From: an uncultured Loktanella sp.
GTDB taxonomy: Bacteria > Pseudomonadota > Alphaproteobacteria > Rhodobacterales > Rhodobacteraceae
DNA: 33,954 bases
Assembly: GCA_913061335.1 (NCBI GenBank)
Contig: CAJXTP010000003.1
Span: forward strand, 1 to 33,954
Direction: 5' to 3'
The notes beneath the pieces are model-generated. The model saw nothing but the letters and a program-made list of their open reading frames with translations. It was not told the origin of the DNA and did not search any database. Of the stretch, positions 29,838-33,954 are shown one piece after another. How positions within the stretch are numbered: position 1 is the stretch's first letter; each line of letters opens with the position of its first letter. The position numbers and the translations under genes are program-made.

Positions 29838-30749
29838 TTAGTTGCGCGAAAACGCTTGTCTGGCAAGTGTTCGCAGGCTCGACCATTGGCTGATAATTAG
29901 ACCGATCATGATTAGGCCCAATGCGATGAAGAACCGCAGCGGTAGGATTTCCGCTAAAATCCATGCGCCAAATATCATCGACCAAACGGGGACTTGATAG
30001 TTCACGAGGGTGAGGAAAACCGCGCCCGCTGATCTGATTGTATAAACCCGCAATAGCGCCGCGAGCGCAGTCGGCACGATCCCAAGAAAGATGATTGCGA
30101 TTGTGCTGGTGCGATCAGTCACGGTTGGTACGCCTTCCACGATTAACATGGCGGGGATCAGGGCAATTGCACCCACCACCAGCAATAATGCGGCCATGGT
30201 AATAGGGTCAATGGGCGGACAGCGGCGCGTCATGATGCTTGAGATTGCGTAAGATAAGGCGGCTGCGATGCAGGCTATTTGGCCCAATGGCTCCCAGCCT
30301 GATCCGATGCGCAAGATTGATGGCCCGATAAGCACCACTGCGCCGACAAAGCCCAAAGTTACGCCGACCAGGTTTCGTGTGCTCAACTTTTCGTCGGTGA
30401 ATACATGCGCCAATGGCAAAACGAAAAGCGGCAGGGCGGCCATTGAAATGCCGGCAAACGCGGACGGCACATATTGTTGCCCCCAACTAAGAAGCGCGAA
30501 CGGCAACGCCGTGTTCAGTAGGCCGATGACGATAAGGTATTTCCACATCCGTCCGTTGAAGTCGGGCAAAGGGCGATTGAGTGCGCGCATGAGCATCAAC
30601 AACGCCGCTGCACCCAATGTGGTGCGTGCGCAGGCAACGGTGAGCGGGCCGTAGCCTTGCAGTGCGATTGACACGACCATAAATGTGCCGCCCCAGATCA
30701 CCCCAAGTGCAAGGATCGACAGCCAGTTTGTGAGTGTAGGTGTTTGCAT
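29838..30749 (-). CDS. EamA/DMT-family transporter
   Basis: About 10 TM segments; GVIWGGTFMVVSIALQGYGPLTVACARTTLGAAALL; AGISMAALPLFVLPLAH. Confidence 0.88.
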   Translation of the reverse strand: MQTPTLTNWLSILALGVIWGGTFMVVSIALQGYGPLTVACARTTLGAAALLMLMRALNRPLPDFNGRMWKYLIVIGLLNTALPFALLSWGQQYVPSAFAGISMAALPLFVLPLAHVFTDEKLSTRNLVGVTLGFVGAVVLIGPSILRIGSGWEPLGQIACIAAALSYAISSIMTRRCPPIDPITMAALLLVVGAIALIPAMLIVEGVPTVTDRTSTIAIIFLGIVPTALAALLRVYTIRSAGAVFLTLVNYQVPVWSMIFGAWILAEILPLRFFIALGLIMIGLIISQWSSLRTLARQAFSRN

Positions 30750-30793
30750 GGTTTGGTTTGATCATGAGGCGGCGGGACTGTCCATGCAGGGGC

Positions 30794-30823
30794 TTGGCAG
30801 GCAAAGGTTTCCTTGCCTGCCAA
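30794..30823. other. Stem-loop downstream of lipoprotein gene (terminator-like)
   Basis: TTGGCAGGCAA-AGGTTTCC-TTGCCTGCCAA, 11-bp stem, no clear T-run. Confidence 0.5.
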
Positions 30824-30842
30824 CACGTCAGCCGCGCATCGG

Positions 30843-31433
30843 CTAGTCTGCTGCGAATACAACGCCTGCGTCGTAAACGTTACCCAAATACGTCTCGATC
30901 CCAGTACCACCTGCGACGAGACCACTTGCGCCAGCACCCATGAAGTTGCCATAGATATCATACTCCAAGGCGAATGGCTCATCGGCGGCGTTGGTTAGTG
31001 TCCCGGTCAGTGTTCCCGCGATACCAGCCTCACCATCACGCAAAATATCGGCCTCCAATATCAACTCGCCTCCAATATCAGTCCCGCTATTAAAACGAAA
31101 ATCTGATGCGATACCGTCAACTTCATTTGAGGCAAAATCAACGCTGACGTCGATCTGACCCACCACATTGGCAGCGTCTAAATTAGTCCCATCCACGATA
31201 CCTGGACCACCAAGAAGAATGGCACCGCTCATGGTTGCGCGACCCGTTGTGGGTACAGCCGACGCGAAGTTACCGTTTTCATAGTCGTCGACATAGGCAT
31301 CGGCGAGTTCGCCTATACGATTGCTTAATGCATCATCAGAAATTGGGTCGCTCAAGACTATATTGTCGATATTGCTGCCGCCACAGGCCGCCAATGAAAA
31401 TGCCAACGGCACCGCTAAAAATATTTAGTTCAC
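30843..31433 (-). pseudogene. Lipoprotein (TbpB/fHbp beta-barrel-like C-terminus); reading frame interrupted by TAA at codon 3, or re-initiated at GTG 31412
   Basis: AAGGAG-6nt-GTG AAC TAA ATA TTT TTA GCG GTG CCG TTG GCA TTT TCA TTG GCG GCC TGT GGC. Lipobox LAAC. Intact ORF from 31412 to 30843. Confidence 0.55.
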
Positions 31434-31464
31434 TTTTTACTCCTTAAGTTGAAATATAAGGGAA

Positions 31465-31492
31465 ATATTAACGACACTAGAATTGAAAACAA
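31465..31492 (-). promoter_or_regulatory. Candidate promoter of lipoprotein gene
   Basis: Minus strand TTGTTT (31492-31487), 16 nt, TAATAT (31470-31465). Confidence 0.3.
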
Positions 31493-31542
31493 GATCGTTT
31501 TAGTAGCGATTGAAATCAATTAACTTATTGTCAGCAAAAACA

Positions 31543-31566
31543 AAACCTTACCCGCGGATAAGGTTT
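31543..31566 (-). terminator. Second hairpin of tandem ilvC terminator
   Basis: Minus strand AAACCTTA-TCCGCGGG-TAAGGTTT followed by TGTTTTTGC. Confidence 0.75.
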
Positions 31567-31574
31567 GATAAAAT

Positions 31575-31600
31575 GGGGTGTCCCAATATTGGAACACCCC
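31575..31600 (-). terminator. First hairpin of tandem ilvC terminator
   Basis: Minus strand GGGGTGTTCCAATATTGGGACACCCC, continuous stem with one G-U pair on the minus-strand RNA (C-A mismatch on the plus strand), then ATTTTATC. Confidence 0.75.
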
Positions 31601-31639
31601 TCTCTCGATGGGTTAAAATCCATTCTACGCAAATTGCGT

Positions 31640-32674
<1,035 letters not shown>

Positions 32675-32794
32675 TTATATTGGTTTCTGTGAATGCTTAT
32701 ATCAAGCGTGTTGGATGTTGTGAGGTTCAGATTTTACATATTTATGCCGAGAAGGAGATTGTTATGTGTAGATTTAGTGATTATCGATGTATTT

Positions 32795-33250
32795 ATGCTT
32801 GATGATACCTCTCGCGCGATATTGCGCCAATTACAAACCGATCCGACCCTAACTGTGCCAGAGCTTGCGGCGCTGACCCACTTGACGGCGGGTAAGGTGG
32901 CGCGCCGCTTGGACCGCATGACAACTGATGGCGTCATCAAAGGGCAGGTTGCAGTGATCAACTGGGCCGCACTGGGCTTTGCGGTGCAGGTGTCTTTGCG
33001 GGTCACATTGGATAAAACGCAGGCCCGCGCATTTGATGATTTTCTGGCGGCGGCCCGTTTGGTGCCCGAAGTGATTGAGCTGCAAACATTCCTTGGGCGT
33101 GTCGATGTGCGTCTATCTTTGGTCACGCGCGACTTGCCGCATTATCAGCAGGTGTACCGTGATCAAATCCTGACATTGCCGCATATTGCCGACATTGAGG
33201 CGCTGATGACGGTGGCGACGGTGAAGGCGGATCGGGTGCTGCCGTTATGA
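32795..33250 (+). CDS. Lrp/AsnC family transcriptional regulator
   Basis: LDDTSRAILRQLQTDPTLTVPELAALTHLTAGKVARRLDRMTTDGVIKG HTH plus AsnC ligand-binding region. Start at 32795. Confidence 0.92.
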   Translation: MLDDTSRAILRQLQTDPTLTVPELAALTHLTAGKVARRLDRMTTDGVIKGQVAVINWAALGFAVQVSLRVTLDKTQARAFDDFLAAARLVPEVIELQTFLGRVDVRLSLVTRDLPHYQQVYRDQILTLPHIADIEALMTVATVKADRVLPL

Positions 33251-33699
33251 CCTTGGACGATCAAGATTTTGAAATTCTACGACAGTTGCAGCGCGATGCG
33301 ACCCAGACTGCCAGTCAGCTCGCACGCAAAATGGGGCTAAGTCAGCCTGCCATGTGGCGCCGGATTAAACGGTTGCAGGATGCAGGGATCATCTCGGGGC
33401 GCGAATTGTTGCTGGATGCCGAAAAGGTGGGCTTTGGCGTGACCGTCTTTCTAGGGATTAAGCTGGCGACCAAAGGCCGCGTCAGTCTGGACGATTTTGA
33501 ACGCACGGTTGGGGCCATCCCAGAGGTGCAAACCGTTGAGCATGTGCTTGGGCTTTATGATTACAGACTGCGTGTTGTTGCCCGCGATCTTGCAGATTTT
33601 GAGCGTGTTCTGCGCCGCCGGATCATGGCGTTGCCGGGGGTCGGTGATGTTGAGGCAAATGTGCTTTTGTCCGAGGAACGATTGTGTGGCCCTATTTGA
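33247..33699 (+). CDS. Lrp/AsnC family transcriptional regulator
   Basis: LDDQDFEILRQLQRDATQTASQLARKMGLSQPAMWRRIKRLQDAGIISG; ATGA overlap with the preceding regulator. Confidence 0.94.
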   Translation: MTLDDQDFEILRQLQRDATQTASQLARKMGLSQPAMWRRIKRLQDAGIISGRELLLDAEKVGFGVTVFLGIKLATKGRVSLDDFERTVGAIPEVQTVEHVLGLYDYRLRVVARDLADFERVLRRRIMALPGVGDVEANVLLSEERLCGPI

Positions 33700-33801
33700 T
33701 CGTGGTTCTTCATTTCCGCCCAATTGTATACACAAATAGACTTTGCCAATGATCCGCGTCTGGGTCATTCTGACCACAATTGTTAATAGGAGCCACGTCC
33801 A

Positions 33802-33912
33802 ATGTCGCAGATTGATCCCACTGGGTTGATGGAGTTTTCGGTTGTTTTCACTGACCGGTCGCTGAACCATATGTCAAAGGCATTTCAAGGCGTCATGACC
33901 GATGTCTCGGAG
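33802..33912 (+). CDS. 5' fragment of a class V aminotransferase-like protein, truncated by adapter
   Basis: MSQIDPTGLMEFSVVFTDRSLNHMSKAFQGVMTDVSE; AGGAG upstream of the ATG. Genomic sequence ends at about 33912. Confidence 0.6.
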
Positions 33913-33954
33913 CTGTCTCTTATACACATCTGACGCTGCCGACGAATAGAGAGG
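33913..33954 (+). other. Illumina Nextera adapter read-through (non-genomic)
   Basis: CTGTCTCTTATACACATCT (Tn5 mosaic end) + GACGCTGCCGACGA (Nextera read-1 adapter) + ATAGAGAG (reverse complement of S502 index CTCTCTAT) + G. Confidence 0.98.

Follow-up and report, generated by a model that had tools for sequence, protein, structure and literature searches.

Untrimmed Nextera adapter at the end of a contig in an uncultured Loktanella genome assembly

The window analysed here, i.e., the whole 33,954-nt stretch of contig C3, breaks off within a gene. The terminus reads ...GATGTCTCGGAG followed by CTGTCTCTTATACACATCTGACGCTGCCGACGAATAGAGAGG, the boundary between genomic and adapter sequence lying between the two. 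Oligonucleotide sequences were taken from publications for comparison with the window end: Tn5MErev and Tn5ME-A (PMC4248319), the S502 primer, composed of AATGATACGGCGACCACCGAGATCTACAC-CTCTCTAT-TCGTCGGCAGCGTC (PMC7757419), and the Nextera index table (PMC7589761). Positions 33913-33931 match Tn5MErev (CTGTCTCTTATACACATCT) exactly on the plus strand, so the adapter starts, next to the insert, with the Tn5 mosaic end of 19 bp. Immediately 3' of it and on the same strand, 33932-33945 read GACGCTGCCGACGA, the reverse complement of the Nextera read-1 arm TCGTCGGCAGCGTC and an exact prefix match to the published S502 and Tn5ME-A oligos; 33946-33953 read ATAGAGAG, the reverse complement of the 8-nt kit-list i5 index S502 (CTCTCTAT) according to both table and oligo; and the G at 33954 is base 1 of the reverse-complemented P5 arm (GTGTAGATCT...), by prefix match to the reverse complement of S502 plus mosaic end. 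The P5 continuation GTGTAGATC is present on further contigs of the same assembly. Compared as a whole, 33913-33954 is identical to the reverse-complemented S502 and mosaic-end oligo at 42 of 42 positions, counted from the first base of the latter, and the chance of such a match is about 68,000 x 4^-42, roughly 3e-21. The mosaic end has this single match in the window even when up to three mismatches are allowed; its expectation from dinucleotide shuffles is 0, and it was never seen in them. The sequence-only reading had named the same four elements, S502 included, and the comparison with Illumina adapter sequences proves it correct base for base. Bases 33913-33954 are an Illumina Nextera adapter, a laboratory artefact without biological function.

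The 19-bp mosaic end is also used in mini-transposons, and one could therefore read the terminus as a Tn5/IS50 end that occurs naturally in the chromosome or as a mini-Tn5 engineered into it. Tn5 transposase does recognise the mosaic end, but the sequence is an engineered substitute for both wild-type ends, outside and inside (PMC4248319). An insertion should show a wild-type outside or inside end leading into IS50 or cargo DNA, whereas in the window the synthetic mosaic end runs on into primer arm, index and P5, and never into transposon cargo. Moreover, the assembly holds about 270 copies, nearly all at contig ends. Given the index and P5 sequence and this distribution, we reject a Tn5 or mini-Tn5 insertion as extremely improbable.

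The assembly to which the window belongs is a draft of 3,086,631 bases in 380 contigs, 92.9% complete. A pattern count over the entire assembly found 270 mosaic-end sites at no more than one mismatch (267 exact); the read-1 arm follows at 108 of them and the read-2 arm at 129, and a reversed control pattern gave zero matches. End statistics combine such whole-assembly counts with 102 contigs examined whole, a set that overlaps partly with the 30 ends inspected first. Every one of those first 30 tails matches i5 S502 or i7 N707 exactly, as a library with a single i5/i7 pair should. Among the 102 contigs, the complete mosaic end is found on 90 of the 204 ends, always facing outward, and 5 further ends have only 12-17 nt of adapter; 87 tails agree exactly with the start of one of the S502/N707 adapters and 3 contain errors. 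Tail length is 19-51 nt for exact tails and 49-54 nt for the three with errors, all below 55. The adapter is thus present on about a third of the assembly's contig ends, and the suspicion that other contigs carry the same contamination is confirmed by the 270 copies over 380 contigs and by the one dual-index pair at the 30 inspected ends.

A sequence found at about 35% of contig ends (270/760) could be imagined as a native family of short repeats, each copy of which interrupts the assembly, and contigs do commonly end at repeats. Such a family would hardly be letter for letter a commercial oligo, however, and the two index variants correspond to the two ends of a library. Nor do relatives carry it: the 56 other genomes in the genus contain no copy of the mosaic-end motif. 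A sample of 385 genomes of the class yielded two further genomes with the motif, G335, with the adapter on one end, and G407, a class-level relative with 26 mosaic-end sites and a different index pair (reverse-complemented i5 GCGATCTA and i7 CGTACTAG), which makes it another member of the species collection contaminated in this way. Mosaic end plus read-1 arm was also found in at least 120 viral contigs (IMG/VR); in 119 of the 120 listed, no more than 100 nt separate the match from an end of the available stretch, and in most of those listed the i5 index differs from S502 (GCGATCTA, CTCCTTAC, TCTACTCT and others). A further 30 phage records and 8 plasmid records match the adapter, and a search of 5,426 complete E. 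coli genomes gave no match. The distribution of the motif follows libraries rather than lineages. On the index match and this distribution we reject the native repeat, the least credible of the explanations weighed.

The 37 codons directly before the tail, 33802-33912 on the plus strand, are genomic and form the true start of a class-V aminotransferase gene, which the contig end interrupts. They encode MSQIDPTGLMEFSVVFTDRSLNHMSKAFQGVMTDVSE, and nine genomes of the genus, among them records labelled Yoonia, Loktanella and Roseobacter sp. CCS2, have a protein whose N-terminus is 82-86% identical to it. In the MAG contig CAJJCJ010000001.1 (L178), about 90% identical to the window over 31607-33910, the gene continues past the junction without adapter to a full 371 aa, and its product belongs to Pfam PF00266 (class-V aminotransferase); no NCBIfam equivalog scored at or above cut-off for it. 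This ordinary coding sequence in a relative, together with the oligo identity, upholds the earlier claim that the tail is not biological. The adapter creates an artificial reading-frame tail at 33913-33933 (plus strand), which translates as L-S-L-I-H-I-stop. The sequence-only reading gave this false tail as ELSLIHI-stop, one residue too long: LSLIHI-stop is adapter, but the E is genomic (GAG at 33910-33912, 5' of the adapter; L178 has A at the same place).

Several other features of this end of the window are worth recording. Upstream of the aminotransferase lie two tandem Lrp/AsnC-family regulators, 32783-33250 and 33247-33699, which overlap by 4 nt, and a ketol-acid reductoisomerase gene (31640-32662, minus strand) stands in the opposite orientation to this pair. 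The stretch 30787-31606 has no match in L178 and separates two 90%-identical blocks (29961-30786 and 31607-33910); a small lipoprotein-like ORF lies within it (30843-31412, minus strand).

Did the adapter itself cut the gene? The sequence-only reading had said that it truncates the aminotransferase, and the gene is indeed cut at the adapter boundary. It is conceivable that the adapter misled the assembly graph and broke the assembly, in which case re-assembly of trimmed reads would extend the contig into the rest of the gene. Four adapter-ended junctions do overlap their neighbours: C27-C3 by 36 nt, C32-C37 by 16 nt, C119-C138 by 25 nt and C125-C132 by 40 nt. In three pairs of neighbouring ends that lack adapter the overlap is exactly 55 nt, and from these we infer a de Bruijn graph assembler with k = 55, SPAdes-like. 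All the adapter-junction overlaps are shorter than 55 nt, and a k = 55 graph therefore could not have joined them regardless; we infer that low coverage left these ends unjoined. Furthermore, a search with the full-length relative protein as query retrieved only paralogues of 24-34% identity from the assembly, the remainder of the aminotransferase being absent, and the last 18 genomic bases of the window occur in no other contig of the assembly. Since the assembly lacks the remainder of the gene, the adapter probably lies at a coverage gap and is not by itself the cause of the truncation; that part of the earlier claim needs qualifying, and a break caused by the adapter is unlikely. The contig most likely ends at a gap in coverage, with the tail contributed by a read-through read.

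At the other end of the window, positions 1-36 are the true genomic start of the contig, and C27 has the same 36 bases as the end of its genomic part before it enters adapter. Because of this shared sequence, C27 and C3 are probably neighbours in the genome.

The origin of the tail is best explained as follows. Its source is the 3' adapter of a dual-index Illumina library made by Nextera (Tn5) tagmentation with the pair S502/N707. Inserts shorter than the read led to read-through into the adapter, left untrimmed before assembly; the assembler would have extended the contig up to a coverage gap, where the last insert stopped, and then run on into adapter, stopping short of one whole adapter k-mer. 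A tail reaching k would be common to all read-through reads, and the graph would collapse it. The identity over 42 bases, the adapter on about a third of the contig ends, the one index pair at the inspected ends, the outward orientation, the limit on tail length and the gene continuing in a relative are all direct observations, and no point against the adapter was found in the assembled sequences. We put the probability that untrimmed S502/N707 adapter read-through was carried into the contig end at a coverage gap at about 0.995.

The artefact is of a kind already well known, nothing biologically novel remains, and its significance is limited to data quality. Bases 33913-33954, and likewise the other affected ends of the assembly, should be trimmed before gene annotation, and the 43-aa ORF at 33802-33933 should not be called a complete gene. 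The tails are also a usable provenance mark through their index pair S502/N707, and they probably show which contig ends are coverage gaps. Peptide ends made by the adapter include LSLIHI, LSLIHISEPTR, CLLYTSPSPRD and VSYTHLRAHET, with the read-1 counterparts CLLYTSDAADE and VSYTHLTLPT. A literature search for LSLIHISEPTR, CLLYTSPSPRD and VSYTHLRAHET found no paper in the collection searched. Public genomes very probably contain a class of false protein termini of this kind that could be counted, and this contig supplies one of them.

A single internal adapter copy was found among the 102 contigs, in C219 (G000:C219, L162), where an in-frame piece of about 33 nt occupies 1844-1876, just upstream of a gene that, judged by eye, resembles sulfoacetaldehyde acetyltransferase (xsc). 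The fused ORF reads ...APMKTVSYTHLTLPTAPMKMTTEEAF, and the adapter would give the predicted protein a false N-terminal stretch. The flanks of the insertion adjoin each other in relatives, and C219 is therefore probably a merger of two adapter-bearing ends.

Comparable cases occur in phage records. In Escherichia phage vB_EcoM_WFK (MK373775.1, L366), mosaic end and read-1 arm lie inside a 'complete' record at about 149749-149781, and at the adapter site the long-tail-fibre gene is annotated as two separate CDS, with a hypothetical protein overlapping them; the adapter probably sits at a false join. In LR597643.1 (L358; 50020-50060) and MZ092003.1 (L359; 27885-27918), an annotated CDS or a misc_feature ('similar to recombinase') contains the adapter. 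The window shares the mosaic end and read-1 arm at contig ends with the other public records (IMG/VR, phage and plasmid) and differs from most of them in its i5 index, S502. The Nextera and Nextera XT read-through described in the Trimmomatic paper, where an assembly from unfiltered data contained a 34-bp perfect adapter match (PMC4103590), is the same phenomenon: inserts shorter than the read, a 3' adapter left untrimmed and its passage into contigs. Our case differs from that one only in extent, with about a third of the contig ends affected in a genome of a public collection.
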